DNA from: a virus
Reading direction: 5' to 3' (one strand)
Virus record (IMG/VR): IMGVR_UViG_3300007345_000070
Span: 1 to 46,715 of that record
DNA length: 46,715 nucleotides
In this document: in pieces, positions 22,372 through 46,715 of the stretch
How the letters are laid out: each line of letters starts with the position of its first letter
Numbering within the stretch: the first letter of the stretch is position 1
Made by a program: the position numbers and the translations under genes
Notes under the pieces: generated by a model
What the model was told of the DNA's origin: nothing
What the model saw: only the letters and a program-made list of their open reading frames with translations
Database searches by the model: none

Positions 22372-22410
22372 AGCCCTGATATATTTATTATAAATGTCTT
22401 GGGGCTTTTT
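22372..22410 (+). terminator. Rho-independent terminator whose loop holds a promoter motif
   Basis: AGCCCTGA (22372-22379) pairs with TTGGGGCT (22399-22406) to give an 8-pair stem, two pairs being G-T, and T residues follow through 22410. The 19-base loop contains ATATTTATT (22381-22389). This would stop transcripts from 21059-22354 while allowing a new start for the next gene. Confidence 0.65.
22381..22389 (+). promoter_or_regulatory. ATATTTATT motif inside the terminator loop (candidate late promoter)
   Basis: The motif lies 27 bases before the ATG at 22417 and entirely within the loop of the terminator hairpin. A transcript starting about 7 bases downstream would lack the 5' arm and so would not form the terminator. 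Confidence 0.5.
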
Positions 22411-22416
22411 ACTATT

Positions 22417-23991
22417 ATGGCACAAATCAAAAGCAAAATAAAAGAAACACCGTATGAGAATGCATATCCAACTGTATTTAAACGTGTAGATCAACAAGAC
22501 ATTCGGATTACTCCGTTTGCAGCAAATAAATCATTTCAAATTTTATCAGGTAGTGCTACTAGTAGTGGATTACCTTTAAAGGCAATATATACCGACGTTA
22601 CTAATTTACCAGCTATTGGATCTGAATTAACATATAATGATGCTGCAAATATAGATGGTAGTTTACAAAGTGTAACGTATTTTTCTGTTAATCATTTATA
22701 TTATAAACGAAAAAAACAACCAGCAAATACATTTGGCCCAACAAATTTAAATCGAACAAAAAAATTCTTATATGAATCTGCGTCTATTTTGTCTATACCA
22801 CAAAATAAAGTAGGGGAAGGAATTAAACCAGCTTCATTTGAATTTACAAGTAGTGTATCTGGAAGTTTTAATTCTGATATATATGGAAATATAATTGACT
22901 CTTCATTTAATACATCTTCTATTATTACTGATGTAAAATGGTATGAAGGTTTCAATGAATATTTTGACACTACTAGAATTAAATATAAGAGTGATGGAAT
23001 AACATATATCGACGGTGTACCTACAAGTAATGGTAGACAATTACCATTAGGATTATCTGCAAAATTTTCTGAAGCTGGTTATATTCAAGATGAGCTTCCA
23101 GGTGAATATAATCGTAATACTGATTATGCAATTTCATTTTTCATTAGCGGATCAAATACAGGAACATCTAATCAATTAGTTGCAACAAAATCTACTAGCT
23201 CACTAACACCACAATATCCATTTAAAATAGAATTGAGTGGCAGCAATCAATTAAATTTTAGTGCAGCAGGAAGCACAGAATTTATTACAATGATTACTTC
23301 ATCAGCTGATGTGTCTAGTTCATGGACTCATGTTGTTTGTCAAAAAACTGGCAGTGAAATACAAATGTATATTGATGGAACTATTCATGCTTCTGGATCT
23401 AGTATATTGCTACAAGATATAGAATCTCCCTTTACTGCTTCTGCTCGTATTGACAATGATCAGTTGTTAAGTATCGGTGGATATTCTACTACTAGTTATA
23501 ATATGCAAGGTCAATTAGATGAAATGCGAATATATAATAAAGCTTTATCTGCAACTGAAGTAAGCTATTTATCGAATCGTACCGAAGGTGGTACTGCATT
23601 ACAAACACAATTTGTAGGCAATGTATTTGGTAAACATGGAATTGTGGTATTTTCGTCTGCAGACTATCGAGTAAATGATTTATTGGAAACACCATTTACT
23701 GCATCTTATAAAAGCACAGTTACTATACATGAATTAGGCGTAACTACAAGATTAGATGCAGGTGATTTTAATATGTCTAACAATGTAACATTAACAAAAG
23801 ATAATAATCAAACATATAGAGGATTTGTTTCTGGTAGTGATTTTGCACCGTATATAACAACGATTGGGTTATATAATGATGCTGGCCAATTATTAGCTAT
23901 TGGTAAATTAGCTCAGCCAATTAAAAAACGTAGTGATGTTGATATGAATTTTTTAATACGTGTTGATTTAGATAAAAAGCCAATTAAATGA
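22417..23991 (+). CDS. Tail protein with LamG/concanavalin-like domain
   Basis: A 524-residue protein from the ATG at 22417; a TTG at 22399 would add six residues but lies in the terminator stem, so I reject it. Residues of about 230-390 form a LamG-like sandwich: YAISFFISGSNTGTSNQLV, SSSWTHVVCQKTGSEIQMYI, DGTIHASGS, and the closing GQLDEMRIYNKALSATEVSYL. Such domains bind sugars or cap fibres. The C-terminal end (YITTIGLYNDAGQLLAIGKL) repeats the end of the upstream protein. It probably forms a receptor-contacting or decorating tail appendage. Its stop overlaps the next start by 4 bases (ATGA). Confidence 0.75.
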   Translation: MAQIKSKIKETPYENAYPTVFKRVDQQDIRITPFAANKSFQILSGSATSSGLPLKAIYTDVTNLPAIGSELTYNDAANIDGSLQSVTYFSVNHLYYKRKKQPANTFGPTNLNRTKKFLYESASILSIPQNKVGEGIKPASFEFTSSVSGSFNSDIYGNIIDSSFNTSSIITDVKWYEGFNEYFDTTRIKYKSDGITYIDGVPTSNGRQLPLGLSAKFSEAGYIQDELPGEYNRNTDYAISFFISGSNTGTSNQLVATKSTSSLTPQYPFKIELSGSNQLNFSAAGSTEFITMITSSADVSSSWTHVVCQKTGSEIQMYIDGTIHASGSSILLQDIESPFTASARIDNDQLLSIGGYSTTSYNMQGQLDEMRIYNKALSATEVSYLSNRTEGGTALQTQFVGNVFGKHGIVVFSSADYRVNDLLETPFTASYKSTVTIHELGVTTRLDAGDFNMSNNVTLTKDNNQTYRGFVSGSDFAPYITTIGLYNDAGQLLAIGKLAQPIKKRSDVDMNFLIRVDLDKKPIK

Positions 23992-26078: not shown

Positions 26079-27023
26079 ATGCAAAATCTTAAATTACTAC
26101 AGTTACTGGAATCTGTCTTAGGTAAAGGTAAATCTACATCAGGTAATAACGTTGCATTTTTCTCACCATTTACTTCACATTATAAACCCAAATTAGAAAT
26201 AGATATCAATACAACTAGCGAAGGTCAAAATGCTTGGCACTGTTGGATATCTGATAAAAAAGGCAGAAGTATAAACAGTTTATTTAAACAAATGAACTTA
26301 GGTAAACAATATTTTGAACAACTGTCTAAAATAATAAAGTCAGCAAAATATAAAAACTTTGACAATGAAGTTAAACATGTAGAAACAATATCATTGCCTG
26401 AAGAATATATTCCATTGTGGAAACATAAAAAGACTCCTGACTTTCGTAATGCTATATCATATTTGAAAAAACGTGGAGTCACTATATTTGATATCTTGAA
26501 GTATCGAATTGGTTATTGTGAAAGAGGAGAATATAGTGGTAAAATAATTATTCCTAGTTATGATTGCCACGGCCAACTGAATTATTTTGTAAGTAGAGCA
26601 TATTATAGTGCCGATAAATATAAACACAAGAATCCAAAAGTAAGCAAAGACATCATAGGATTTGATTTGCTTATTAATTGGGAAGAGCCAATTATACTTT
26701 GTGAAGGATCATTTGACGCAATTGCAATAAAAAGAAATGCAATACCATTATTTGGTAAAATCATACAACCACAACTACAGAAAAAGATTATTGAAAAACG
26801 AGTCAAAGACATTTATATATGTTTAGATGCTGACGCTATTCGCAATGCATTGAGTATTGCAGAACGTTTTATGGGTGAAGGGTTAAATGTATATTTTATA
26901 GAATTAAAAGACAAAGATGCATCCGATTTAGGATTTCATCGTATAACAGAAATTATAGAACAAACTGGAGTAATGACATTTGAACAACTAATGCAACTCC
27001 GAATGGGTATTTTATGGAAATAA
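26079..27023 (+). CDS. gp61: DNA primase, gp61-like, with Toprim domain
   Basis: A 314-residue protein. The N-terminal 100 residues have the layout of a T4 gp61-type primase (FFSPFTSHYKPKLEID, then AWHCWISDKKGRSINSLFK). The catalytic Toprim domain follows, with the Glu motif ILCEGSFDAIA (Glu209) and the Asp motif ICLDADA (Asp250, Asp252). It makes the RNA primers for lagging-strand synthesis with the phage helicase, which is not in this window. The length is close to T4 gp61 (342 residues). Its end overlaps the start of the Mre11-Rad50 fusion gene by 10 bases, so the two are coupled. Confidence 0.85.
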   Translation: MQNLKLLQLLESVLGKGKSTSGNNVAFFSPFTSHYKPKLEIDINTTSEGQNAWHCWISDKKGRSINSLFKQMNLGKQYFEQLSKIIKSAKYKNFDNEVKHVETISLPEEYIPLWKHKKTPDFRNAISYLKKRGVTIFDILKYRIGYCERGEYSGKIIIPSYDCHGQLNYFVSRAYYSADKYKHKNPKVSKDIIGFDLLINWEEPIILCEGSFDAIAIKRNAIPLFGKIIQPQLQKKIIEKRVKDIYICLDADAIRNALSIAERFMGEGLNVYFIELKDKDASDLGFHRITEIIEQTGVMTFEQLMQLRMGILWK

Positions 27024-30000
27024 CAAAAGCAGATAAAATTTATCATATATCTGACGTGCATATTCGTACGTTAAAACGACATAAAGAGTATCGCCATGTA
27101 TTCGAAAACATGTTTGATTACATTAATAAAACTAAAACTGAAAATAGTATAGCAGTAGTTACTGGAGACATAGTTCATAGTAAATTGGATATGTCCCCAG
27201 AGTTAGTTAGAATGCTTACTGATTTTTTTAGAGGATTCAATATTCCTACGATTGTTATTCTTGGTAATCATGACATGAATCTAAACAATTTATATCGTGA
27301 AGATGCGTTGTCTCCGGTATTAGACATGATTGCTAATGATAACATTGTTTTTATAAAAGATAATGGTACCTTTGACTTTGCTGGAATAACTTGGAATCAT
27401 ATGGCTGTTGATGTTGAGCCTGCTCAATACGTAAAAGGAGAAGACATTGTAACAGACAACTTGAAGATTGCATTACACCATGGTGCCGTGCATTCTGCTA
27501 AAACAGATATAGGATATGAAATATCCAATGAGCATGTTACTACTGACTTGTTTTCCGGACACGACTTAACACTACTAGGTGACATTCATAAACCGGCTCA
27601 ATTCTTAACTGAAACTATTGCATACCCTGGCTCACTTATACAACAAAATCATGGCGAAGCATTAGATCATGGAATACTTGTTTGGGATGTAGAAACAAGA
27701 AAAGCTGAATTTGTAGAAATACACAATGATTACGGATATGTAACTATAGAAACAGAAGGCTCTCAAATTGTCAAGTCACCACATCGTATGCCTAACAAGC
27801 CTAGAATAAGAATCAAGTTCAATGAAACCAGTGCAGCAGATATGAAACGATTGGTTACTATGATTCGTAAAAAATACAATGTTCAAGATATTACCATACA
27901 ACGAACCATATCTGCACAAAATAATGCTGAGTCTGGAACTATTACAATTGGCAATGTTCGAGACGTTGAATATCAAAATACATTATTAACTGACTTTATT
28001 AACACTAAATTTCCGCAAGCAACTACCGATGAGTTAGATGCAATAAGACATATTAATCGATCTATTAATTCTAAACTCCCAGCAGTTGAATCAGTACGTC
28101 ATATAACATGGCATCCGGTATCATTCGAATTTGATAATATGTTTTCATATGGAGAAGGTAACCGAGTAGACTTTAATAAAATGAGTGATGTGTGTGGTTT
28201 ATTTGCTGCAAATACAAGTGGTAAGTCAAGTTTATTAGATGCTATAACATATACTATATTTGACAAATGTAGTAAAACAAGCAAAGCCCATGAAGTGTTA
28301 AACAATAAAAAGTCTGGATTTCGTGGAGTGTTTAAATTTAAAATGAATGATGTTCTTTATACAATTGAACGTGTTGGTACTAAGAAAAAAGACAACCATG
28401 TAAAAGTAGACGTTAACTTTTATACTGAATCAGAAAATTTAAATGGTGATGAGCGAAGTGATACAAATAAAAGTATACGTCGTTATTTAGGAACATACAA
28501 TGATTTTATTTTAACTGCATTTTCACTTCAAGCAGATAATAATAATTTTATAGAAAAGTCACAGCGAGAAAGAAAAGACTTATTATCTCAATTTTTAGAC
28601 ATCACGGTATTTGAACAACTTTATCATTTAGCAACAGATGAAATAAAAGAAACAGCTGGTCGCCTTAAAGCATTTAAGAAAACTGATTTTGCAGAAACAA
28701 TAACATCTGCAGACGCTGTTATTAATAACAATGAAAAATTAATTGCTGACACTAACAAAAAAGAATCAGACAAACAAACTAAAAGAAATCAATTACAAGA
28801 TTCTATAGTACAACTAATTGAAACAAAAAAACCTACAAGTTATGAAGGTGATGATATTAAAACGTTACAAGATACTGAAGTTGATTTAACTGAAAAAATA
28901 GAAAAGCTTCAAGAAACAATTGAAGAAACAGAACAAACAATTTCAGAATATCAAGATAAAATTGATAATATAGAACAGACAATTGCAATACAAAATTACA
29001 ATGTTGATAACTTAAAAGACAAAGACAAACAATTAACGGATACCGAATTTAAAATTGATGGTTTACGGGAAGAATTAAAAAAACAACAAAGAATAGTAAA
29101 TGATAAGCAAACAAAAATTGAACATCTTGAGACGCACAAATATGACCCAAATTGTGAATACTGTGTGTCTAACGTTTTCGTGCAAGATGCAATACAAGCC
29201 AAGAACGACATTGATCAAGATAGAAAAGTATTAACAGGTATTGAAGATGATATCGAATTAAGTAAAAGTTTACAAGATAGTTTAACTGTATATAAAACGC
29301 AACTTAACGATTATAATACTGCAATCGATAATATCGACACATATAAAAATAAAATTGAAATTGCTGAGTTACAACTTCAGATTCATGAAAATGATCTGCA
29401 AACCAAAGAAACAGAATTAGAAAACAACATAGAAAGACAAGAATCGTTTAAACGAAATGAGTCTGCTATTATTTGGAATAAAGATATTGATAAAAATATT
29501 AATGATTGTAAAGGTAAAATTGATACAATTTCTGGTCAAATAAAAACACTTCAAGATCAAATTAAAACCAATCATGGAGAAATACAAGTTGCTAAAACAA
29601 AAAAGAAAACAGCATTAGAGCAATTAGAAACATATCAGCAATTAGAAACAGAATATAAAGCATATGAATATTATTTAAAATCTGTTAAACGAGATGGTAT
29701 TCCGTATGAATTAATATCCAAGGCAATTCCTAAAATAGAATCAGAAATAAACAATGTTTTAAATCAAGTAGTAGATTTTAACATGGTTATGAATACTGAT
29801 GGTAAAAATATTAACGGATATATTATATATGATCAAGACAATTATTGGCCATTAGAATTAACGAGCGGCATGGAAAGATTTATATCTAGTTTAGCAATAC
29901 GCATAGCACTTATCAATGTTTCAGCATTACCACGTCCTAATTTTATAGCAATCGACGAAGGTTGGGGTAGTTTAGATGCAGAACATATTTCTGCAGTTGC

Positions 30001-30136
30001 AAATTTATTTGATTATTTTAGAACTAAATTTGATTTCTCAATTATTATATCTCACGTAGACACAATGAGAGATATGGTAGATAATTTAATTGAAGTAAAT
30101 AAAAATGACGGATACAGCCAGATTCTTCATGTTTGA
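27014..30136 (+). CDS. gp47-gp46: Fused Mre11-Rad50 recombination nuclease (gp47-gp46 in one chain)
   Basis: One uninterrupted frame of 1040 residues holds both halves of the SbcCD-type complex. Residues 1-340 are the Mre11/gp47 phosphoesterase: ISDVHIR (Asp14, His16), VVTGDIVHS, ILGNHDM, ALHHGAVHS and LLGDIHKP. From residue 366 (WHPVSFEFDNMFSYGEG) begins the Rad50/gp46 ATPase: AANTSGKSS (398-406), a long split coiled coil, the zinc hook C714-E-Y-C717, the signature LTSGMERF (949-956) and Walker B FIAIDEG with Asp981-Glu982. In T4 these are separate genes. The complex resects DNA ends for recombination-dependent replication and host DNA breakdown. The first Walker A glycine is replaced by Ala398. 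The upstream primase overlaps it by 10 bases. Confidence 0.92.
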   Translation: MEITKADKIYHISDVHIRTLKRHKEYRHVFENMFDYINKTKTENSIAVVTGDIVHSKLDMSPELVRMLTDFFRGFNIPTIVILGNHDMNLNNLYREDALSPVLDMIANDNIVFIKDNGTFDFAGITWNHMAVDVEPAQYVKGEDIVTDNLKIALHHGAVHSAKTDIGYEISNEHVTTDLFSGHDLTLLGDIHKPAQFLTETIAYPGSLIQQNHGEALDHGILVWDVETRKAEFVEIHNDYGYVTIETEGSQIVKSPHRMPNKPRIRIKFNETSAADMKRLVTMIRKKYNVQDITIQRTISAQNNAESGTITIGNVRDVEYQNTLLTDFINTKFPQATTDELDAIRHINRSINSKLPAVESVRHITWHPVSFEFDNMFSYGEGNRVDFNKMSDVCGLFAANTSGKSSLLDAITYTIFDKCSKTSKAHEVLNNKKSGFRGVFKFKMNDVLYTIERVGTKKKDNHVKVDVNFYTESENLNGDERSDTNKSIRRYLGTYNDFILTAFSLQADNNNFIEKSQRERKDLLSQFLDITVFEQLYHLATDEIKETAGRLKAFKKTDFAETITSADAVINNNEKLIADTNKKESDKQTKRNQLQDSIVQLIETKKPTSYEGDDIKTLQDTEVDLTEKIEKLQETIEETEQTISEYQDKIDNIEQTIAIQNYNVDNLKDKDKQLTDTEFKIDGLREELKKQQRIVNDKQTKIEHLETHKYDPNCEYCVSNVFVQDAIQAKNDIDQDRKVLTGIEDDIELSKSLQDSLTVYKTQLNDYNTAIDNIDTYKNKIEIAELQLQIHENDLQTKETELENNIERQESFKRNESAIIWNKDIDKNINDCKGKIDTISGQIKTLQDQIKTNHGEIQVAKTKKKTALEQLETYQQLETEYKAYEYYLKSVKRDGIPYELISKAIPKIESEINNVLNQVVDFNMVMNTDGKNINGYIIYDQDNYWPLELTSGMERFISSLAIRIALINVSALPRPNFIAIDEGWGSLDAEHISAVANLFDYFRTKFDFSIIISHVDTMRDMVDNLIEVNKNDGYSQILHV

Positions 30137-32898: not shown

Positions 32899-35361
32899 AT
32901 GAATAAAACTACAGTACTTTTTCCAGGCGGGTTTAAACCATTAACAGGTGCCCATTTAACATTAGCACAACGCTATGCAAATTCTTCCAATGTAGAACGA
33001 GTAATAATGCTCATCGGTCCAAAAGAACGAGATGGGGTAAGTCGTCAAGACAGCGAAGAAATATTTCGATTAATTAACACTAATCCTAAAATAGAAATAC
33101 GTCCTACAGACTTTAACAGTCCAATAATGGCTGCGTATGAATTTTTATTTGCACTGCCAGAAGATGATATGGGAACATATGCAATGGCTGCATCTAAAAA
33201 AGGAGATGATTACGCTAGGACATTGAGTTTTGCAGGAAACGTAGAAAAATATAAAACTGTCGGAGACAAAAAAGGCAGAAAAATCCCGGCCGGCGTAGAA
33301 GTGAATCCATTAGAGATAGATGTTGAACCATTAACATATAGTAACGGCGATCCTATTTCAGCCAGCACTATACGACAAGCAATTGCTAATAATGACTATG
33401 AAACATTTGCAGCATCATATCCTGGAACAAAAGAAGCCGTTCTTAAAAATATATGGCAAATGCTAACCGGAGTGCAGGAGTCAATATTTAGCAAATCGTG
33501 GTGGGGCAATCAATTAGCAGAAGATATAGACGAAGTAGCAGAAGGATATCAAACTCCTAAATTAGCTCGAGCTCACGATAAAAAAATAAAAAAACTAAGA
33601 AAACATTTAGATCGAAGTCGCGGAGAAGAATTTGTATATGATTTTGCTAATTTTGGTAAAACTGTGTTTGGTGCACCATTATATGAAAATTATATTACGC
33701 GTGACGAATTAAAATCTATAGAACCAACCGTAGACAGATTCTTTAAGCGTTACGGTATTGATGTAGACTTTCAAGGATATGCAACGCATTTTATGGACCG
33801 ATTAAATGATCCTAGAAATGAAGGAACAATTACACTTGACGATTTAGAAAATTTATTTTTAGATTTATCATCAGAGTATGGCGAAGAAATAGTCCAACAA
33901 GTAATGAGAGGCAATCCATCAGCAGTAACATCAGACTATCAATTTGACGTTCCCATTCATATGCCATTTCAATTACATTTTGATCAGAGTTTAGGACAAA
34001 TAAAATTGATTCCTAGAACAGTTAAATCACAACGACGTCCATGGAGATCAAATAATCCGTCTGATAAAATATATACAATAGAAAATGTATTAACAGAAGG
34101 CGGCGCAGCAGGACATATGAATCATCCTTATGACTCTCATGGATTAACTTTCAATGACATGAAAGAAATAGTATCCAGAGCATTAGAAGGACGACTTGAC
34201 ATGGAAGAAGCCGTTACTGAAAAGACAGACGGACAGAACATTCAAGTAACTTGGAAAAACGGACAACCAGGTTTTGCTAGGGGAATAAAAACTAGAAAAG
34301 ATCCATTAACACCTGCAGAAATTGTTGCTGAATTTGAAGCAAAATATCAAAAGTCAGTTGAAGCTAATGGAGTTAAAGGGGCAGAAGGATATAAATTAGT
34401 AGTAGACGCATTTCGTGCAACAGCAGAAGATTTAACGGCATCTTTAAGCAAATTATCTAAAGAGACACTTATGCGTATATTTAAAAACGGTAAAGTGTTT
34501 GCAAACATGGAAATTATATATCCTGCTACTACCAATGTTATTGCTTATGAGCAAGCAGTGCTTCAATTTCATAATCTAGTTGAATATGACGAAAATGGAA
34601 AAGTAGTAGAAACAGATGTAACTGGTGGCACTATGCTTCAACAAGTAATACAAGATGCTAATGCACATATGCAAAAGACATTTTCATTTATTCCGCCTAA
34701 CAAATTAAAATTGGGTCGTATAGAAGATTTTGAAGATCAACAAGCAGCATTCTTTGCTGAAATAGATAGTTTAAAAAATCAATTTGGTCTTAAAGAAACT
34801 GATCGTGTATCTGAATATCACAGAGCATGGTGGAAAGACGTCGTACGAGAAAAAGCATATCAATTAGATTATGCTATACCACAAGATGTATTAGAAATAC
34901 TAACTAACCGTTGGGCATTCAATGATAAGTCTACAAGAATAAATAACGTAGTTAAAATGATAGACAATGAATCTTTTTCTGCATGGGTTTCGGCCTTTGA
35001 TAAAAAAGATTTTAAAGCATACCAAAAACAAAATATAGAACCTTTTGAATCTATATTTTTAAAACTTGGTGCGGTAGTGTTAAAAAACATAAAAAACTAT
35101 TTAGCAGTTAGTCCAGATAAAGCAGTTCGTCAAATTAAAAAAGACTTGATGTCATTGATTAAAGACTTACAAACATCAGATAATCCTGACACACTTAAAA
35201 AATTAGAAACACAATTAAAAAAAATAGAACGAATAGGTGGCTTTGATACTATAGTACCAATTGAAGGTATTGTATTTACATATGGTGGTAACACATATAA
35301 GCTAACAGGTTCATTTGCTCCAGTAAATCAGATACTAGGAGTGTTAAAATACGCAAGGTAA
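32899..35361 (+). CDS. Nucleotidyltransferase fused to a nucleic-acid-ligase-like domain
   Basis: An 820-residue, apparently bifunctional protein. Residues 1-200 follow the HxGH cytidylyl/adenylyltransferase fold: FPGGFKPLTGAHLTLA (8-23; the HxGH position reads T-G-A-H) and ISASTIRQA (153-161, the ISSTxxR motif), as in NMN or pantetheine-phosphate adenylyltransferases. Residues 200-395 are unassigned. From about 400 comes a ligase/RNA-ligase-like adenylation domain with motif I E-K442-T-D-G445 and a later strand FANMEIIYP. At the junction, VLTEGGAAGHM (397-407) contains L398-T-E400 followed by Gly, which resembles a prohead protease site. Possible roles are NAD metabolism, RNA repair or DNA end joining; the substrate is unknown. 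It is expressed among late genes. Confidence 0.7.
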   Translation: MNKTTVLFPGGFKPLTGAHLTLAQRYANSSNVERVIMLIGPKERDGVSRQDSEEIFRLINTNPKIEIRPTDFNSPIMAAYEFLFALPEDDMGTYAMAASKKGDDYARTLSFAGNVEKYKTVGDKKGRKIPAGVEVNPLEIDVEPLTYSNGDPISASTIRQAIANNDYETFAASYPGTKEAVLKNIWQMLTGVQESIFSKSWWGNQLAEDIDEVAEGYQTPKLARAHDKKIKKLRKHLDRSRGEEFVYDFANFGKTVFGAPLYENYITRDELKSIEPTVDRFFKRYGIDVDFQGYATHFMDRLNDPRNEGTITLDDLENLFLDLSSEYGEEIVQQVMRGNPSAVTSDYQFDVPIHMPFQLHFDQSLGQIKLIPRTVKSQRRPWRSNNPSDKIYTIENVLTEGGAAGHMNHPYDSHGLTFNDMKEIVSRALEGRLDMEEAVTEKTDGQNIQVTWKNGQPGFARGIKTRKDPLTPAEIVAEFEAKYQKSVEANGVKGAEGYKLVVDAFRATAEDLTASLSKLSKETLMRIFKNGKVFANMEIIYPATTNVIAYEQAVLQFHNLVEYDENGKVVETDVTGGTMLQQVIQDANAHMQKTFSFIPPNKLKLGRIEDFEDQQAAFFAEIDSLKNQFGLKETDRVSEYHRAWWKDVVREKAYQLDYAIPQDVLEILTNRWAFNDKSTRINNVVKMIDNESFSAWVSAFDKKDFKAYQKQNIEPFESIFLKLGAVVLKNIKNYLAVSPDKAVRQIKKDLMSLIKDLQTSDNPDTLKKLETQLKKIERIGGFDTIVPIEGIVFTYGGNTYKLTGSFAPVNQILGVLKYAR

Positions 35362-37266: not shown

Positions 37267-37643
37267 AACAAATAATTTTTATATTATTATTTCCAATAAC
37301 ATTATTCGGACAAACCGTAACTGATACGTGTTTTACAGAACAACAGATACACGACATATCAGAAACATTAGATGAATTATATTATCAAGATTCAGTTAAT
37401 AATGCATTAATAACACAGCAAGAAGCAGTTATAGAAAAACAAGATGAATTACTTCGTTTAGATTCTTTACAATTAGAATACAAACAACAACAGATTAATT
37501 TACTTGAAGAAAATATAGATTTATACGTAAAGCAACAAAAAAGGTTACAACCTAAATGGTATAATCATAAAGCTTTATGGTTCGGTAGTGGTATATTAAC
37601 TACGATATTAACTGGTAAATTAATAGTAGGGGCAATTCAATAA
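37263..37643 (+). CDS. Exported coiled-coil protein with C-terminal membrane helix, spanin-like
   Basis: A 126-residue protein. It starts with a signal peptide (MKQIIFILLFPITLFGQ), has a coiled coil at about 45-95 (QQEAVIEKQDELLRLDSLQL, then QQQINLLEENIDLYVKQQK), and ends with a hydrophobic helix (ALWFGSGILTTILTGKLIVG). The first Cys is six residues after the Gln, so a standard lipobox is not clear. A cleaved signal followed by a periplasmic coiled coil and a terminal membrane helix resembles unimolecular spanins. The ...LFGQ ending points to a Bacteroidota host. It overlaps the previous gene (ATGA) and the terminase start, so it may be part of a lysis pair placed before gene 17. Confidence 0.6.
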   Translation: MKQIIFILLFPITLFGQTVTDTCFTEQQIHDISETLDELYYQDSVNNALITQQEAVIEKQDELLRLDSLQLEYKQQQINLLEENIDLYVKQQKRLQPKWYNHKALWFGSGILTTILTGKLIVGAIQ

Positions 37644-39223
37644 TGGCTAATCCTAACATAAAACAAATAATTCAACAGCAATATCAAATGTGTGCTGCTG
37701 ACCCTGTTTTTTTTATGCGTCAATATTGTTATATACAACATCCTAAACGAGGTAAAATTAAATTTAATTTGTTTGACTTTCAAGAAACGTCATTAACACA
37801 ATTACAAAATAATAGATACAGTGTTATATTGAAATCTAGGCAATTAGGTATATCAACACTGTCTGCAGGATTTGCTTTATGGAGCATGTTATTTAAAGAA
37901 GACTTTAACGTGTTAGTTATTGCAACCACACAAGAAGTAGCAAAAAACTTAGTAACTAAAGTTCGGGTAATGCATGATAACTTACCAAGTTGGCTCAAGG
38001 GGTCAATTGAAGCAGACAATAAATTATCTTTAAAATTTCGTAATGGCTCACAAATAAAAGCCGTATCATCAGCAACTACCGGTGCACGTTCAGAAGCACT
38101 ATCTTTACTAATAATTGATGAGGCTGCCTTTATTAGAAATATTGAAGAAATATGGATAGCATCACAAGCAACCTTATCTACTGGTGGTGGTGCAATAGTA
38201 TTATCTACACCAAATGGTATTGGTAACTGGTTTCATAAAACATGGGTTGATGGTGAAACAAATCCACAAACACAATGGCACAACATAATGCTTCATTGGA
38301 CAGTTCATCCAGATAGAGATACTGAATGGAGAAATGAACAAACACAATTATTGGGTGAACGGGGAGCAGCACAAGAGTGTGATTGTGACTTTGTTAGTTC
38401 AGGACATACTGTAGTTGATGGTAAAATATTAGCAGAATATGAATCTAAATGTTCAGAGCCATTAGAAAAACGTGGTTTTGATAACGGTTATTGGGTTTGG
38501 GAATATCCTGATTATTCAAAAAATTATATAATTGTAGCTGATGTTGCTCGTGGTGATAGTGCCGACTGGTCTGCATTTCATGTTATTGACGTCGAAACAG
38601 TTACTCAAGTAGCCGAATATAAAGGTAAACTACCTCCTAAAGATTTTGGAAATATGTTAGTTACCGTAGCTACGGAATGGAACAACGCGTTGCTAGCAAT
38701 TGAAAATGCTAATATTGGTTGGGCAGCAATTCAACCAGCATTAGATAGAAACTATGAAAATTTATTTTATACATATAAAGATGACGGATATGTTGATGTT
38801 GATATTCAATTACAAAAAGGATACGACATGAAAGATAAAACTAAAATGGTTCCTGGAGTATCGACAACAAGTAGAACAAGACCACTAATGATATCTGCAT
38901 TAGAAATGTATATGCGAGAAAATACACCAGTTATACGCAGTAAACGACTCATACAAGAACTATTTGTCTTTCAGTGGTTAAATGGCAAAGCACAAGCACA
39001 AGTAGGTTATAATGATGACTTGGTAATGAGTTTTTGTATTGGCCTTTGGCTCAGAGATACATCTTTAAAACTAAGACAGCAAGGTATCGATCTAAATAAA
39101 AGAGCATTATCTCAATTTCAAAAAACAGATAGTGTTATTTATACTGGAAAAAACAAACCAAGAGACTCCGGATGGGATTGGCACAACGGCCAAAACGATG
39201 AAGGTTTAACATGGTTATTGTAA
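37643..39223 (+). CDS. gp17: Large terminase subunit gp17
   Basis: A 526-residue protein with both enzymatic domains. The packaging ATPase has a Walker A-type loop SRQLGIST (65-72) and Walker B LLIIDEAAF with Asp159-Glu160. The SATTGARSEALS stretch and the coupling motif STPNG follow. The C-terminal nuclease begins at ADVARGDSADWSAFHVID with Asp300 and has later acidic residues near GYNDDLVMS. It pumps DNA into the prohead through the portal and cuts concatemers. The length is slightly shorter than T4 gp17 (610 residues). The start overlaps the preceding stop by one base (TAATG). Confidence 0.95.
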   Translation: MANPNIKQIIQQQYQMCAADPVFFMRQYCYIQHPKRGKIKFNLFDFQETSLTQLQNNRYSVILKSRQLGISTLSAGFALWSMLFKEDFNVLVIATTQEVAKNLVTKVRVMHDNLPSWLKGSIEADNKLSLKFRNGSQIKAVSSATTGARSEALSLLIIDEAAFIRNIEEIWIASQATLSTGGGAIVLSTPNGIGNWFHKTWVDGETNPQTQWHNIMLHWTVHPDRDTEWRNEQTQLLGERGAAQECDCDFVSSGHTVVDGKILAEYESKCSEPLEKRGFDNGYWVWEYPDYSKNYIIVADVARGDSADWSAFHVIDVETVTQVAEYKGKLPPKDFGNMLVTVATEWNNALLAIENANIGWAAIQPALDRNYENLFYTYKDDGYVDVDIQLQKGYDMKDKTKMVPGVSTTSRTRPLMISALEMYMRENTPVIRSKRLIQELFVFQWLNGKAQAQVGYNDDLVMSFCIGLWLRDTSLKLRQQGIDLNKRALSQFQKTDSVIYTGKNKPRDSGWDWHNGQNDEGLTWLL

Positions 39224-39274: not shown

Positions 39275-41104
39275 ATGGCATCTTTAAGAAAACGTTTACA
39301 GAACTTGTTCAGCACCAATGTTATTGTTCGTGCATATGGCAAAGATAAACTAAAAGTTGTTGATACAAACAAACTTCAATCAGTTGGAAACTTAGCACAA
39401 ACTAAATTAGCAGACCGATATACTAGGCTACATGGCTCTAATAAACATAAAGTAGGGGGCATACATGGAGGCTATGACTCTAATTACTATATGCATCAAA
39501 ATCGTATACAATTGTATACTGATTATGAAATGATGGACCGAGACCCGATTATACATTCGGCATTAGATATATACTCAGATGAGTCTACACTTGAAGATCA
39601 ATTCGGTGATATACTCACTATCAAGACCAATAACACCAAGATACAAAAAATACTTTATAATTTATATTATGACATCCTTAACATTGATTTTAATATGTGG
39701 GCATGGATTCGTAACATAACAAAGTATGGTGATTTCTTTTTAAAATTAGACATTGCAGATGAAATTGGAATCATCAATGCCAGACCATTTTCTAGTTATG
39801 AAATAGAACGTTATGAAGAATATGATGAGGTTACTGGTGAATATGATATAAAATTCAAACACATTGGCGGCTATGATGAATCATATGAAGTATTTGAAAT
39901 AGCACACTTTCGTTTGTTATCTGACTCAAACTTTTTACCATATGGTCGTTCTATGCTCGAAGGGGCAAGACAAGAATTTCAAAAACTAACAATGCTTGAA
40001 GACGCAATGCTCATACACAGAATAATGAGAGCACCAGAGAAGCGTATATTCAAGATAGACATAGGTAACATACCACCTAACGAAGTTGATACATTCATGG
40101 AACAGATTATCAACAAGATGAAAAAAATTCAACACGTTGATCAACAAACTGGTAATTATAATCTTAAGTTCAATCTAAATAATATGCTTGAAGATTACTT
40201 TTTACCTGTTAGGGGCGGACAGTCATCAACACAGATAGACACACTACCAGGAATGACATGGACTGGTACTGAAGATATTGAGTATGTGAAAAACAAAATG
40301 ATGGCAGCTCTTAAGATACCGAAGCCATTTTTAGGTTTTGATGAGGGGGTTGAAGGTAAAACTACATTAGCGTCAATGGATATTCGATTTGCTAGAACCA
40401 TTGAACGAATACAAAAAATAGTAATTTCTGAATTATATAAAATTGGTATTGTTCATTTAGCAACACAAGGTTATGAAGGTGAAGATCTTATTGGTTTTGA
40501 CCTATCATTGACACCACCATCGATAATCTACGATCAACAGAAAGTTGCATTGATGAATGAAAAAATAAATTTAGCTAACACCATGAAAGACAGCAAATTG
40601 GTGTCAGATAAATATATATATGAATTCATATTTAATATGTCCGAAGAACAGTGGCTACAAGAACGTGTTAATGTGATTGAAGATCTTAAGCTTAGATTCC
40701 GTCAAAATCAAATTGAACAAGAAGGTAATGATCCTACTATAACAGGTGTCTCATATGGTACGCCACACGACCTAGCTTCAATGCATATGAGCACTGATGA
40801 AGTTGAAGACAAAGATGTAGGGGGTCGACCTAAAGAAGGAATTAAATACGGACAACATGCAAATGAATTTGGATGGGATCCAACTGGTAAGAAAACTATA
40901 GATCAAGCATTTAATCCTGAAAATCAAAAGACTGCTTTTCAACCTAATCCTAGGAGGCGAAAGGTAACTATGACTCAAGAATCTCAAAATGTTTTAAATT
41001 ATTATAGAAAACAAAAAGGACAAAAAATTATAACAGAAACGTTTAATTCTTCATCTAAAGATAATGATTTAGGAACAATGTTAGATGAAAACAATATTTT
41101 ATAG
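39275..41104 (+). CDS. gp20: Portal vertex protein gp20
   Basis: A 609-residue protein of the T4 gp20 portal family. Typical stretches are YEMMDRDPIIHSALDIYSDE, WIRNITKYGDFFLKLDI, AHFRLLSDSNFLPYGRSMLE, APEKRIFKIDIGNIPPNEVD and the tunnel-helix region KNKMMAALKIPKPFLGFDEG. Twelve copies form the ring at the head vertex where DNA enters. The length is close to T4 gp20 (524 residues) with an extended polar C-terminus (NPENQKTAFQPNPRRRK). It is followed by core and protease genes in T4 order. Confidence 0.95.
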   Translation: MASLRKRLQNLFSTNVIVRAYGKDKLKVVDTNKLQSVGNLAQTKLADRYTRLHGSNKHKVGGIHGGYDSNYYMHQNRIQLYTDYEMMDRDPIIHSALDIYSDESTLEDQFGDILTIKTNNTKIQKILYNLYYDILNIDFNMWAWIRNITKYGDFFLKLDIADEIGIINARPFSSYEIERYEEYDEVTGEYDIKFKHIGGYDESYEVFEIAHFRLLSDSNFLPYGRSMLEGARQEFQKLTMLEDAMLIHRIMRAPEKRIFKIDIGNIPPNEVDTFMEQIINKMKKIQHVDQQTGNYNLKFNLNNMLEDYFLPVRGGQSSTQIDTLPGMTWTGTEDIEYVKNKMMAALKIPKPFLGFDEGVEGKTTLASMDIRFARTIERIQKIVISELYKIGIVHLATQGYEGEDLIGFDLSLTPPSIIYDQQKVALMNEKINLANTMKDSKLVSDKYIYEFIFNMSEEQWLQERVNVIEDLKLRFRQNQIEQEGNDPTITGVSYGTPHDLASMHMSTDEVEDKDVGGRPKEGIKYGQHANEFGWDPTGKKTIDQAFNPENQKTAFQPNPRRRKVTMTQESQNVLNYYRKQKGQKIITETFNSSSKDNDLGTMLDENNIL

Positions 41105-41146: not shown

Positions 41147-41998
41147 ATGAAAAAATTAAAACATTCAAAATACAAGAATACCGGGATTCTTTTCGAGATG
41201 CTTGTAAGAAAGCTAACATCAGAAACAATGTCTTCTGACAAAACAGTAACCGTCGATATAATTAAAAAATATTTTGGTAAAAATACTGAATTAGCAAAAG
41301 AATTAAATTTATATAATTCGATAATTAAAGAACAACACAAATCAGAAGCTCGAGCGTTAGAATATATACGAACTATTAGAGAAGCATATACACGTCTTAA
41401 TCAAAGTACTTTGAAACGTCAACGATATAATTTAGTAAAAGAAATATCTGAAAATTTTGTATTTGAACGAGTATCGAAAATACATATAAACAATTACAAA
41501 GCATTAGCATCGATATACATGTTGTTTGAATATAAAGATTCAGACAATCCAAAAAGATTAATGGAATGTAAAAATGCAGTATTAGAACACACATTGTTAA
41601 CAGAAAAAGCAATGCTTCCAAAAGATGAGTTGTTAGAAACATTTTCTAAACAAGAAAAGGATACAAGATTATTAGCATATAAATTAATGATAGATAAATT
41701 TAACAACAAATATTCAGTACTTTCAGAATCACAGAAACAGTTGTTAAACAAGTACATTACCAATGTTAATGACACAGAAGCATTACGCGAATATATTAGC
41801 AATGTTATTCCTACATTAAAAACACGTTTAGCAGAACATTCAAAACATATAACAGATAATGTTACAAGAATAAAAGTTGAACGACTATCAGAAATGCTTT
41901 GCAATGTAGAAACAATGAAAAAATTAAAAGAATCACATATAGTGTCTTTAATGCGTTATATGGATTTAATTGATGAATTAAATAGGATACATAAATGA
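41147..41998 (+). CDS. Unknown helical protein in the head-core position
   Basis: A 283-residue, fully helical protein. It begins MKKLKHSKYKNTGILFEML, with L-F-E at 15-17. From memory, similar starts (KHxKxKNTGILFELLVRxxT) occur next to the portal gene in other T4-like marine phages, but I know of no defined role. The region between genes 20 and 21 in T4 encodes prohead core proteins gp67 and gp68, so a core or vertex assembly role is likely. The last codons overlap the next start by 4 bases (ATGA), so it is coupled to the core-like protein downstream. Confidence 0.65.
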   Translation: MKKLKHSKYKNTGILFEMLVRKLTSETMSSDKTVTVDIIKKYFGKNTELAKELNLYNSIIKEQHKSEARALEYIRTIREAYTRLNQSTLKRQRYNLVKEISENFVFERVSKIHINNYKALASIYMLFEYKDSDNPKRLMECKNAVLEHTLLTEKAMLPKDELLETFSKQEKDTRLLAYKLMIDKFNNKYSVLSESQKQLLNKYITNVNDTEALREYISNVIPTLKTRLAEHSKHITDNVTRIKVERLSEMLCNVETMKKLKESHIVSLMRYMDLIDELNRIHK

Positions 41999-42642
41999 AA
42001 TCATTCTTAAAACAAATAAACGAAAGTTTTCATGCACTTGACGAAAAAGCAGCAAAACCTGATTATTTAGATTTTGATGGCGATGGTGATAAAAAAGAAC
42101 CAATGAGAAAAGCGTTAAAAGATAAAGAACAAAATGAAGCAGTAGATCAAGATAACGATGGTAACAATGATTTTGATGATGTTAAAATTGCAAGAATGAT
42201 GGCATCGGGTATGTCAAAAGAAGATGCACTTAAAAAAGTTCAAGAAGAAAAAGAAATAGACGAAGCATCTACTTCTGCAGGCGCAGGTTCATATATGACT
42301 CCAAAAGCTTTTGGTAAAGCAGATGATGATACTGTTGAAGCCATGGGATATAAACGAGTTCAAGAAGCAATGGATCAAAAGTATGAACAACTTATTGAAG
42401 GCTATAAGCATTTTGCTCTAGGAGAAAATAATTCTTCACCAACACAAACAGTAAATCGAGCTATTAGAGAAGTAGCAAAACAGTTAAAATCAATTGAAGA
42501 AACTGTTAAATACACAAGCAGATTAAAAACAGAATCTGGAATATCACATTCAGGATTTAGTAGCGGAACACATAATGCTTTAAGAAAAATATCAGAGCGA
42601 TTAATTAAAATATCAGAGAGAGTTAGATCATTAGGAGAGTAA
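41995..42642 (+). CDS. Prohead core-like protein with Asp-rich EF-hand-like loops
   Basis: A 215-residue acidic, helical protein. The start MKSFLKQINESF contains I-N-E (8-10), a possible prohead-protease site. Two Asp-rich loops, DFDGDGDKKE and DQDNDGNNDFDD, resemble EF-hand or dockerin calcium loops; such loops recur in core proteins of this phage group. A STSAGAGSYMTPKAF segment and a basic helical end (ALRKISERLIKISERVRSLG) follow. It lies between the portal and protease genes, where T4 has gp67/gp68. It is probably an internal core protein that is degraded or trimmed on maturation. Confidence 0.65.
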   Translation: MKSFLKQINESFHALDEKAAKPDYLDFDGDGDKKEPMRKALKDKEQNEAVDQDNDGNNDFDDVKIARMMASGMSKEDALKKVQEEKEIDEASTSAGAGSYMTPKAFGKADDDTVEAMGYKRVQEAMDQKYEQLIEGYKHFALGENNSSPTQTVNRAIREVAKQLKSIEETVKYTSRLKTESGISHSGFSSGTHNALRKISERLIKISERVRSLGE

Positions 42643-42645
42643 GAT

Positions 42646-43266
42646 ATGTCAAAGCCATTATTAGTAGAATATATGAAGTTTAATCCAATTGGGTCACTCA
42701 ATGAGTCAAATGGTGCAAAATATGGAATTCCAGGTGGATTTGTAGTTCAAGGCATACTACAACGTAGTGGCGCAAAGAATCAAAATGGACGTGTATATCC
42801 TAAAAATATATTAATGCGAGAATGTCAACGATATCAAAAAGAATATATAGATCAAAACAGAGCTTTAGGTGAATTAGATCATCCAGAGTCAAGTGTTGTC
42901 AATTTAAACAATGTGTCTCATAATGTTTTAAAAATATGGTGGGAAGGCGATGATCTTAAAGGCGTAGTTCAAGTATTAGATACGCCGTCTGGTAAAATAT
43001 TAAAGTCTTTATTCAAAGAAGGTATAACACTAGGAATATCTAGTAGAGGTTTAGGTAGTGTTAAAGAATTAAGAAATGAAGGCGTTGTAGAAGTTCAAGA
43101 TGATTTTGAATTGATTTGTTGGGACTTTGTTAGCAATCCATCAACACATGGAGCTTTTATGGGAATGATGAAAGAATCGGTTGAAAAAAATAAAACAAAT
43201 AAATACGGAAAAGTTAATGATCTAATCACATCAATATTGTGTGAAGATGGTAAATGTAGGATATAA
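42646..43266 (+). CDS. gp21: Prohead maturation protease gp21
   Basis: A 206-residue serine protease of the T4 gp21 (herpesvirus-protease-like) family. The catalytic His is in GELDHPESS (His79), and the Ser is in GITLGISSRGLGS (Ser132 or Ser133), with spacing very similar to T4 gp21 (His85, Ser140). The conserved QNGRVYPKNIL lies before the His and ELICWDFVSNPSTHGAFM after the Ser. It also carries L-V-E (6-8), consistent with self-cleavage. It digests the core and trims head proteins after (I/L)-x-E. The GTG codon at 43241 inside its end is not a likely start for the next gene. Confidence 0.93.
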   Translation: MSKPLLVEYMKFNPIGSLNESNGAKYGIPGGFVVQGILQRSGAKNQNGRVYPKNILMRECQRYQKEYIDQNRALGELDHPESSVVNLNNVSHNVLKIWWEGDDLKGVVQVLDTPSGKILKSLFKEGITLGISSRGLGSVKELRNEGVVEVQDDFELICWDFVSNPSTHGAFMGMMKESVEKNKTNKYGKVNDLITSILCEDGKCRI

Positions 43267-44612: not shown

Positions 44613-45698
44613 ATGGCAAAAACAGATTTGCTAAAAGAAGCAATTGCTGACGCTAAGGCCGTTAAAGAAACTGCATTAGCAAACGCAAAGATTGCGCTTG
44701 AAGAAGCTTTCGCTCCAAGAATCCAAAGCATGTTATCTGCTAAGCTATCCGAAGAACTCATGGATGAACAAGATGAGTTAGAAGATGCTGAATTAGATAT
44801 GGCTGCTGGTGAAGAAGGTGATGTACCTGCTGAACTAGATGGCGACATGGCTATGGATGATATGGGTGACGAAGGTGAACCAATGGATGTTGGTGATATC
44901 GAACTCGATACTGACATGGATGGTGAAATTGACTTTACTGGTGACATAATGTCAAAACCAGGAACGGAAGCCGAACCAGCTATAGACGACATGGGTGAAC
45001 CAGAAATGGATGCAGTTGATGCAGAATTAGACGGTCCGTCGGACGAAATGGGTATTGAAGAGATCATCAGAGAGTTAGAAGAAGATTTAGACGAAGGTGA
45101 AGGACATTATGCTGAAGAAGAAGAACCTGTAATGGGCGAAAATTATTCAGAAGAAAATAATGGAACTGACGAAGGACAAGTTTTAGAATCAACTGATAAA
45201 TCTATTGACGAACTTATCGAAGCAATCTTAGCTGAAGAAGAAGAAGAGAAAGAAGAAGAGAAAGAAGAAGAAACAGTTGATGAATCAAATTGTGGCGGTA
45301 CTCGTAAGAAAAACGAAGAGATGAAAGAAGCTCTCGAAGAAGCTTATGATACTGTAGGACATCTTAAATCAGTAATCAACGAAGTTAATCTTTTAAATGC
45401 AAAACTTCTTTACACAAACAAATTGTTCCGAAATTTTGAGTTGAACGAATCACAAAAAATGAAAGTGATTGAAAACTTTGACAGAGCTGGTAACACCAGA
45501 GAAGCAAAATTGGTATTTGCAACTTTAGCAGAATCATTCCATAAGCCTAGCAGAGGAAAAAAAGTAGTTAAAGAATCAAGATCAATGGCATCTAAGCCTG
45601 TTGCAACAACTGCTCCAAGCAAAGAGACAACTCAAGTATTAACTGAAGGCTTTGAACAAGCCAACCGTTGGAAGAAACTAGCGGGTTTAATTAAATAA
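44613..45698 (+). CDS. gp22: Prohead scaffold/core protein, gp22-like
   Basis: A 361-residue, extremely acidic helical protein in the gp22 position between the protease and the capsid gene. It begins MAKTDLLKEAIADAKAVKET with L-K-E at 7-9. It has a Glu/Asp-rich middle with DMAMDDMGDEGEPMD-type repeats and EEEEEKEEEKEEE, and a helical Lys/Gln-containing end (FEQANRWKKLAGLIK) of the kind that binds the capsid lattice. Numerous L-x-E tripeptides fit complete digestion by gp21 after assembly. A perfect AAGGAG Shine-Dalgarno sits 7 bases before the ATG, unusual in this window. It is longer than T4 gp22 (269 residues). Confidence 0.82.
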   Translation: MAKTDLLKEAIADAKAVKETALANAKIALEEAFAPRIQSMLSAKLSEELMDEQDELEDAELDMAAGEEGDVPAELDGDMAMDDMGDEGEPMDVGDIELDTDMDGEIDFTGDIMSKPGTEAEPAIDDMGEPEMDAVDAELDGPSDEMGIEEIIRELEEDLDEGEGHYAEEEEPVMGENYSEENNGTDEGQVLESTDKSIDELIEAILAEEEEEKEEEKEEETVDESNCGGTRKKNEEMKEALEEAYDTVGHLKSVINEVNLLNAKLLYTNKLFRNFELNESQKMKVIENFDRAGNTREAKLVFATLAESFHKPSRGKKVVKESRSMASKPVATTAPSKETTQVLTEGFEQANRWKKLAGLIK

Positions 45699-45722: not shown

Positions 45723-46715
45723 ATGAGTTTAAATTCATTATTACAAAGTCCTGATGCCTCTCAAAGAAATGCTGTTAAAGCACACGTTTCTAAATGGGAG
45801 AAAACAGGTCTTTTAGAAGGTCTATCTAATGAGACTGAAAAAGCCGGTATGGCTACTTTGCTTGAAAACCAAGCAAGACAATTAGTAAAAGAAGCAAATG
45901 CTACAGGTACAGCAGCTGGTTCTGAGGAATGGGCAGGAGTTGCTCTTCCATTAGTAAGAAGAATCTTTGCTGAATTTGCAGCTAAAGAATTCGTATCAGT
46001 ACAACCAATGAACTTACCATCAGGTCTAGTATTTTACTTAGACTTTAAATATGGTACAGCTCGTCCAGGATTTGATGATGATAATGCCGATCCAGTATCA
46101 GCAAACGGTCATCCATTTGGAACTCCAGAAGCTGACGATTCAATGTTTGGTGTTACTAATACATCAGGTGATCCATCAGGTGGTCTTTATGGTGCAGGTA
46201 GATTTGGATATTCAATTCCAAACGCAACTGGCGTTGCCGCAACTGTATCTGCAGGAGCCTCTACAGGTTCAGGAGCTGCTCACACAGCTGCAACTAGTGC
46301 ATCATTGAACTTTGATTCACTTTACACTGCTAATTCTGGTCAGTATTTTAATTTAACAGTACCAGTACCAACTGATGCTGATGCATTAGCAGTTAGATCA
46401 TTTACTTTGATTTCTGGTTCAACTGAAATTATTCCTGTACAAGCATTCTCAACTATTGACGCTAACTTTACAGCATCAATGGTAGTAACTGCTTCATTGG
46501 CAGGCGGTGCAACTGGTATTCAAGTAGCAATCGATAACAATGGCTTGAATGTTAACTATAGCAAAGCTCCAACCGATATTACAAGAGGTGACTTTGAAGA
46601 TGCTAATCCGTTTAAAGGATCTGGTGCTAATACTGGTATCGATGATGGTACAGATATTGACATTCCAGAAGTTAACTTAGAACTTCAGTCTGAGCCAATC
46701 GTTGCTAAGACTCGT
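45723..46715 (+). CDS. gp23: Major capsid protein gp23, cut by the right edge
   Basis: The first 331 residues of the T4 gp23 family run to the right edge without a stop. Diagnostic stretches are KWEKTGLLEGLSNE, MATLLENQARQLVKEAN, GVALPLVRRIFAEFAAKEFV and SVQPMNLPSGLVFYLDFKYG. The N-terminus contains possible prohead cleavage sites (L-L-E followed by Gly near residues 30-33; V-K-E followed by Ala near 56-59), as expected for a gp23 that is trimmed during maturation. An AAAGGA Shine-Dalgarno lies 9 bases before the ATG. Base composition is slightly richer in G+C than the tail genes, in line with very high expression. Confidence 0.95.
   Translation, partial: MSLNSLLQSPDASQRNAVKAHVSKWEKTGLLEGLSNETEKAGMATLLENQARQLVKEANATGTAAGSEEWAGVALPLVRRIFAEFAAKEFVSVQPMNLPSGLVFYLDFKYGTARPGFDDDNADPVSANGHPFGTPEADDSMFGVTNTSGDPSGGLYGAGRFGYSIPNATGVAATVSAGASTGSGAAHTAATSASLNFDSLYTANSGQYFNLTVPVPTDADALAVRSFTLISGSTEIIPVQAFSTIDANFTASMVVTASLAGGATGIQVAIDNNGLNVNYSKAPTDITRGDFEDANPFKGSGANTGIDDGTDIDIPEVNLELQSEPIVAKTR

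Follow-up and report, generated by a model that had tools for sequence, protein, structure and literature searches.

Introduction

The prohead protease of phage T4, gp21, cleaves after L/I-x-E, and the first 10 residues of the T4 capsid targeting sequence (CTS), which gp21 removes, are enough for the packaging of internal protein IPIII (PMC9026906). The T4 proteins IPI, IPII, IPIII and Alt offer a comparison for the subject of this article, an 820-residue protein encoded in the 46,715-base window formed by positions 1-46,715 of IMG/VR virus record IMGVR_UViG_3300007345_000070 (hereafter, the window). The two sides are alike in their setting among late head genes, the S77 protease, the L/I-x-E motif, the leaders (found here on stand-alone relatives) and the predicted delivery with the DNA, for which Alt is the precedent; the T4 proteins are, however, single packaged proteins that lose short propeptides, whereas in the window protein the candidate sites lie between enzyme modules and there is no N-terminal leader. 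Here we argue that the window protein is probably a head-packaged polyprotein cut by the phage’s own S77 prohead protease, delivering RNA-repair enzymes.

Polyvalent proteins are similar in joining several unrelated enzyme domains within a single virion-linked protein, in their shuffled modules, in their late-gene context and in the comparison with polyproteins, but they are freed by embedded peptidases, whereas here release would come from the head protease at [IL]xE (bracketed residues are alternatives) or from an internal start (PMC5512222). The window protein, predicted to be virion-linked, falls within their definition, with at least two unrelated effector domains (three here, more in relatives) near terminase large subunit (TerL), portal and protease genes. 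Profile searches of the window protein and 36 longer relatives gave no peptidase family match, and we found no RNA ligase reported as a polyvalent-protein module in PMC5512222. Phage P1 DdrB and the N4 virion RNA polymerase are large packaged proteins, as the window chain is predicted to be, with other domains; one of them is processed, the processing of DdrB being ascribed to an embedded metallopeptidase and none to the N4 polymerase (PMC5512222).

Several cyanomyoviruses have NMNAT-like proteins in their virion proteomes (PMC9602691, PMC10665884). Those of S-SCSM1, S-CBWM1 and S-CREM2 belong, like the first module of the window protein, to the HIGH superfamily, and the S-CBWM1 protein matches phrog_395; it is a single domain with neither a ligase nor a CTS-like leader, and cyanophage NMNAT-like proteins have no known processing. 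Virion-linked multidomain proteins and virion NMNAT-like proteins are therefore already known as related pieces. A literature search that largely excluded subscription papers returned no virion-carried RNA ligase and no head protease that frees several enzymes from one chain.

Modular Organization of the Window Protein

The window protein has three modules, with two candidate cut sites between them (Table 1), an arrangement that recurs in relatives L003, L004, L008, L011, L016 and L041; its modules, catalytic residues and folds are described here from sequence and structure prediction. A preliminary description of this DNA had seen a nucleotidyltransferase joined to an adenylating ligase-like domain through a linker holding a prohead-protease-type junction. 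What it observed is confirmed: K442-T-D-G, L398-T-E400 and GGAAG (residues 401-405, directly after E400) all stand where it placed them. Its interpretation is partly supported, as set out below. To its two domains we add a middle module (about residues 265-375) and, ahead of it, another candidate site, PLYE263↓N (the arrow marks the predicted cut); relatives carry KLxE[SN]x[IL]xEN↓YITR at the same place. The middle domain is encoded as a gene of its own in Methylophilales phage Melnitz. The model of the N-terminal part has a predicted template modeling score (pTM) of 0.50, its middle-module portion being too weak for the fold to be named.

In L035:2920-5260 the reading frame is interrupted between middle module and ligase, and the resulting two open reading frames (ORFs) reflect either a genuine split or an error in sequencing.

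Conservation of the Junction Ahead of the Ligase-Like Module

Relatives were gathered from phage matches and with patterns that left out the P1 residue, and were thinned to 46 at 80% identity. The position preceding GG is Glu in 38 of these, and 37 combine [IL] at P3 with Glu at P1; P2 is unconstrained, and P2 and the residues upstream vary while [IL]xE is retained. What lies ahead of the junction varies as well, from a bare linker (L017, L043) through the middle domain (the window, L032) or a Zn-ribbon-like piece (L072-L074) to long multi-module chains. P0001, a relative encoded by the isolated Microcystis phage Mel-JY01, reads IIAE↓GG at this point. In the AlphaFold2 (AF2) model, residues 392-404 are unfolded, with a predicted local distance difference test score (pLDDT) below 50.

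The motif is also frequent farther from the ligase. Linkers running from nucleotidyltransferase to ligase, with the last junction removed, hold 73 [IL]xE[GASN] sites against 21.3 ± 4.6 in shuffles (3.4-fold), in a test that counts relatives as independent, although after thinning at 80% identity they are still related. At least one such site occurs in 30 of 36 linkers. Control motifs (D, K or Q in place of E; [FYW] or [KR] in place of [IL]) give ratios of 0.64-1.29, and [IL]xE[GASN] is depleted inside domains (0.58). The overlapping shorter form [IL]E shows a 2.1-fold increase that probably stems from the frequent L or I at P2. Since the junction is kept as [IL]xE in 37 of 46 relatives with differing upstream sequence, and since linkers are enriched relative to the controls, LTE↓GG exceeds chance; the enrichment and the exchange of the site for internal starts, described below, lead us to reject a chance motif. 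At the level of the motif, then, the protease-type junction of the preliminary description holds.

Two relatives (L063:2054-5260 and L071:1964-5260) carry, close to the ligase junction or at it, an in-frame insert of about 200 residues that opens with a CxxC zinc-finger-like stretch, includes an HNH endonuclease-like HLDHKYSI and has Cys at P1 (LLVC↓GG). Given the nuclease-like stretch and the absence of an intein-like end, we set an intein aside and treat the insert as an endonuclease-like segment.

Gene Forms That Would Release the Ligase

Seventeen non-redundant stand-alone ligase genes (stop codon at most 60 codons upstream) all begin with a leader of 12-48 residues ending in xE↓GG, with L, I, V or M at P3; MKKFSEYFKLIAE↓GG, MKTLLNYTEFLIEKWNQQYPDIILE↓GG and MLDFKHYFLLKE↓GG are examples, and most leaders resemble T4 capsid targeting sequences. 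Most of these genes came from a scan whose pattern included the Glu codon, so their Glu is not independent evidence, although the leaders themselves are; LR756500, found without a pattern requiring Glu, has the leader MKFLKSYEEFLNENLILE↓GG.

In a further five of the 46 relatives Met replaces the Glu (LLLM↓GG). A Shine-Dalgarno sequence (GGAG or AAGGAG) stands 9-10 nt upstream in all five, against 3 of 38 Glu variants and 46 of 878 other internal Met codons, rates taken from the unbiased set and excluding both a Met set whose pattern required GGAG and a Glu set whose pattern required Glu. This indicates that the ligase can start by translation at the very same residue. Parsimony on the ligase tree gives five changes between Glu and Met, and the Met variants L185, L224 and L231 each stand beside a Glu variant with support of at least 95; exchange by recombination is possible. 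In L235, MGGVAGGM is the very start of the gene, and AAGGAG precedes it.

The third form answers a check named in the preliminary description, whether homologues have split genes at the junction. L234, on a Lak-like contig of 410 kb, has separate nucleotidyltransferase and ligase genes adjoining protease and capsid genes, whereas in L236, the other member of this Lak-like megaphage pair, the two are fused into a single gene, with 58% identity to L234 in the nucleotidyltransferase and 63% in the ligase. The L236 linker contains a start-like MSLRDYVFE, which by its sequence looks like a leader turned internal. L235, L234, L084 and the 17 leader genes thus give the ligase separately, from GG or close to it, and the three gene forms (stand-alone, internal start and split) suggest, on sequence grounds, that it is meant to exist as an independent chain with GG at its start.

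Two of these loci drew separate attention. L235:8007-10415 has the reverse order, ligase then nucleotidyltransferase, and lies in a 2.8-Mb WOR-3 metagenome-assembled genome (MAG) chromosome among bacterial-looking genes, possibly as a prophage remnant or a domestication. At L234:2164-9209 a row of genes beginning MKSIREYINE, MKSINAYITE, MKSLKQFINE and MKSLIQYISE stands beside the prohead protease gene, a candidate set of packaged proteins in a Lak-like megaphage whose contig is filed under a Firmicutes MAG.

The RNA-Ligase-Like Module

Residues 401-820 would form an RNA-ligase-like adenylating domain. K442, D444, G445, R461 and E538 are invariant in 46/46 relatives, and E789, K801 and T803 in the 44/44 that can be aligned there, so that KxDG, the Glu of motif III, the Glu of motif IV and the first Lys of motif V of the superfamily are present in every aligned relative. 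These residues (with the Arg of motif Ia) and the fold are shared with T4 RNA ligases 1 and 2, the Naegleria RNA ligase and fungal Trl1. The AF2 model of module 3 has a pLDDT of 90.4 and a pTM of 0.87, and its best VIA-align rows are Naegleria Rnl (Z 8.8 over 187 residues, root-mean-square deviation 3.9 Å), Trl1 (8.3), T4 Rnl1 (7.9), trypanosome REL1 (7.9) and T4 Rnl2 (7.6), the RNA-ligase rows together spanning 8.8-7.2; DNA ligases and capping enzymes rank below them (Z 5.0-6.6). The first Foldseek match is T4 Rnl1 (E 9.7e-4). The adenylating domain of the preliminary description is therefore upheld by its invariant core and by fold. The profile searches that the description called for, one per domain, gave a weak phrog_395 match for the N-terminal half and no significant match in Pfam, PHROG or NCBIfam for the C-terminal half.

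The HIGH-Superfamily Nucleotidyltransferase

By predicted fold, module 1 is clearly a HIGH-superfamily nucleotidyltransferase, whereas by sequence profile the evidence is weak: Pfam CTP_transf_like at E 0.022 (below cut-off) and phrog_395 cytidyltransferase at E 0.0012. Over residues 1-190 the AF2 pLDDT is mostly 83-95 (one block 65, one 75), and the best VIA-align rows are CoaD (Z 13.1), NadD (12.2) and NadM (11.7). The HxGH and ISSTxxR first reported for it did not survive as exact motifs; the protein has the variants PGGFKPLTGAH (TxAH) and ISASTIR, which together with the Rossmann-like fold (Z 11.7-13.1) agree with the (H/T)xGH and ISxxxxR of the superfamily. P9, G10, F12, P14, H19, S154 and R159 are invariant in the alignment.

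The matches to NadD and NadM, and the NMNAT-like proteins of cyanophage virions (PMC9602691, PMC10665884), would suit a system in which module 1 makes NAD that is consumed by the ligase or in a contest with host defence. CoaD scores as high, however, and the three enzymes lie close enough together that no substrate is singled out. An Ia-like domain confers NAD specificity on bacterial ligases (PMC9503650); we saw none ahead of the ligase, and stand-alone ligases occur with no nucleotidyltransferase attached. We regard an NAD system as distinctly improbable, and the earlier suggestion that the nucleotidyltransferase feeds NAD to the ligase is unsupported.

Longer Relatives and Their Additional Modules

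The longest relatives reach 1909 residues, and many open with a leader such as MNKLTEWL...LxE. The HIGH nucleotidyltransferase is present in 24 of 36 longer chains; a kinase-like P-loop domain (AAA_33/zeta, of PNK-like type in L163 and L176) occurs in 7, a tRNA nucleotidyltransferase in 5-6 and an HD domain in 4, with GNAT or plastocyanin as single cases. Module starts again coincide with the motif: the kinase-like domain begins at xxE↓G[VI]ND and the tRNA nucleotidyltransferase at INE or ISE↓NKI, while LLKE↓GS, LLKE↓AS, LLSE↓GS and similar sequences precede a ‘DDGPPTFY’ module.

The set of ligase, kinase-like and tRNA nucleotidyltransferase modules points to repair of RNA, the simplest target being tRNAs that host RNases have cut; with the RNA-ligase fold it favours the RNA half of the ‘RNA or DNA repair’ first proposed. 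A polyvalent effector made of pieces that target the host, for instance its RNA or translation, would account for the ART-like, GNAT or zeta-toxin/kinase-like modules of some relatives and would follow the usual interpretation of polyvalent proteins (PMC5512222). A ligase combined with a tRNA nucleotidyltransferase and a PNK-like kinase nevertheless fits repair, and the catalytic residues are intact throughout, so we hold an attack on the host to be unlikely.

Three chains are unusual in composition. L368:1096-3864 has a plastocyanin-like copper site (HCDPHLGM) upstream of the ligase, matched by Pfam Copper-bind and phrog PetE in 1/36 members. In L230:4285-7239 the order is permuted, with the ligase (349-758) ahead of the nucleotidyltransferase (787-983) in one chain. 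Within the precursor of L139:1349-5206, what reads by eye as an ART/KptA-like stretch (GTIYHYTDKKGLAGILKSNSI) comes right after ENINE↓A.

Head Genes and the Predicted Cutting Enzyme

The precursor ORF sits upstream of a late head-gene block that includes the predicted cutting enzyme, a gp21-family protease (Table 1). By motif (VLTE400↓GG and PLYE263↓N, kept in relatives) and by the S77 protease of the same phage, the window protein has the features of a gp21 substrate. The protein at 44613-45698, which has no family match and is called scaffold-like from its position, contains 8 [IL]xE[GASN] sites in 361 residues, one of which, QVLTE↓GF, repeats the VLTE↓G of the precursor junction; relatives have QVLSE↓GF and PIITE↓GF. 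Elsewhere the motif occurs 0 times in the 903-residue protein before the precursor and twice in a 1040-residue SbcCD-like protein.

Table 1. Features of the precursor and of the head-gene block in the window (+, strand as given; the arrow marks a predicted cut).
Feature	Position	Strand	Basis
Whole precursor ORF	32899..35361	+	ATG start, intact, 820 residues
Module 1, predicted HIGH-superfamily nucleotidyltransferase, residues 1-192	32899..33474	+	phrog_395, AF2 model, VIA-align
Linker, residues 194-264, ending in predicted cut site 1 (L261-Y-E263↓N264)	33478..33690	+	pLDDT <50 over 194-219 and 253-264
Module 2, small middle domain, residues 265-375	33691..34023	+	phrog_14518 E 2e-5; phrog_23027 E 9e-7
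Predicted cut site 2, L398-T-E400↓G401	34090..34101	+	Conserved [IL]xE; low model confidence; Glu-to-Met exchange
Module 3, predicted RNA-ligase-fold adenylating domain, residues 401-820, first letters GGAAGHMNHPYD	34099..35358	+	AF2 and fold matches
Ligase motif I, K442-T-D-G, predicted AMP-accepting lysine	34222..34233	+	K, D, G invariant 46/46
Terminase large subunit	37643..39223	+	phrog_2 E 5.5e-44
T4-type portal protein	39275..41104	+	Pfam Portal_T4 E 1.1e-64
Head-cluster protein with CTS-like leader MKSFLKQINE↓SF	41995..42642	+	Leader; no family match
Prohead protease, T4 gp21 family (predicted cutting enzyme)	42646..43266	+	Pfam Peptidase_S77 E 3.5e-30; phrog_207 E 5e-55
VLTE↓G site near C-terminus of scaffold-like protein 44613-45698	45639..45650	+	QVLTE↓GFEQANRWKKLAG
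T4-type major capsid protein, truncated by window end	45723..46715	+	Pfam Gp23 E 5.6e-13

A DNA primase gene and the SbcCD-like gene lie farther upstream of the precursor. The latter (27014-30136) is a single ORF of 1040 residues that fuses an SbcD-like part (phrog_100, 7-329) with an SbcC-like part (phrog_77, 276-1036); in T4-like phages SbcC and SbcD are normally two genes. The product of the ORF at 22399-23991 contains a concanavalin A-like lectin domain (Laminin_G_3, E 3.3e-17) and is probably a tail or fibre protein.

A Model of Processing and Delivery

In the model that we favour, the precursor would enter the prohead core alongside the scaffold, and the S77 (gp21-type) protease would cut scaffold, capsid protein and precursor in one maturation step, cleaving after [IL]xE at module boundaries, here E263 and E400. 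These cuts would yield a nucleotidyltransferase, a small middle protein and an RNA-ligase-like enzyme whose new N-terminus is GGAAGHM. The freed enzymes would stay in the capsid with the DNA, be injected into the host and act at once, their likely task being repair of RNA (tRNA) against host RNases. The earlier proposal of a packaged polypeptide split at E400 is well supported by comparative evidence (changing boundaries, leaders, internal starts, a split/fused pair and the S77 protease); its count of two enzymes and one site does not stand.

Several observations pull the other way. GG and GHM(xHP) downstream of the site are themselves conserved almost everywhere, so part of the junction conservation may belong to the ligase; L085 is a fusion without EGG at the junction; and short L/I-x-E motifs arise easily. 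On this footing the protein could be an uncut multidomain enzyme in which LTE↓GG is merely the flexible start of the ligase domain. The unfolded 392-404 segment, an enrichment restricted to [IL]xE-type motifs and found also far from the ligase, the ligases made as separate chains from GG or nearby, and the swap of Glu for an internal start all speak against this, and we judge an uncut enzyme improbable.

Packaging raises a second difficulty. The window protein begins directly with module 1 (from about residue 4) and has no short N-terminal L/I-x-E leader; we therefore do not class it as a CTS protein, only as one acting like it, and the processing model leaves its entry into the prohead unexplained. 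A packaging signal internal to the linkers is our guess. The S-CBWM1 NMNAT, in the virion with no such leader, lends the leader argument no support by itself. Internal starts in the Met variants would yield a leaderless ligase, so packaging may not be universal. For all members, moreover, we infer packaging, cleavage, injection, ligase activity and substrate.

The identity of module 3 carries the remaining doubts. Motif V is KxT in 44/44 relatives, a departure from the KxK of covalent nucleotidyltransferases that is usual in the ligase superfamily. A sequence-profile search of the PDB with the ligase returned just low-scoring unrelated matches and no RNA ligase, so that kinship with RNA ligases rests on predicted fold and motifs. 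Further differences from known RNA ligases are a helical region before motifs IV-V (in the model, a long insert between motifs IIIa and IV), the conserved GHMxHP N-terminus and the lack of any profile match or Pfam family. Given KxT and the insert, we name the module RNA-ligase-like and assign it to neither Rnl1 nor Rnl2. The same two features, with the presence of DNA ligases and capping enzymes in the fold list (Z 5-6.6), would suit a released C-terminal enzyme whose adenylation target is not RNA but DNA, protein or a small molecule, or that caps ends instead of joining them. RNA ligases nonetheless occupy the top fold rows, and in longer relatives the accompanying modules are kinase-like and tRNA nucleotidyltransferase domains; we consider such an enzyme rather unlikely, though the most plausible of the alternatives to RNA joining by a packaged polyprotein.

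Implications

Beyond this phage, we rate it an even chance that many T4-like and megaphage lineages package an RNA repair kit as a modular polyprotein cut at [IL]xE module starts, some of them having swapped the site for an internal ribosome-binding site. If the processing model is right, head maturation doubles as polyprotein processing: the head protease would also free injected enzymes from one precursor, akin to the polyprotein proteases of RNA viruses. A packaged RNA ligase would then act before phage gene expression and could mend cleaved tRNA ahead of phage transcription, the first virion-borne case that we could find. An [IL]xE just ahead of a module would, in turn, provide a rule for spotting packaged enzymes in uncultured phages.

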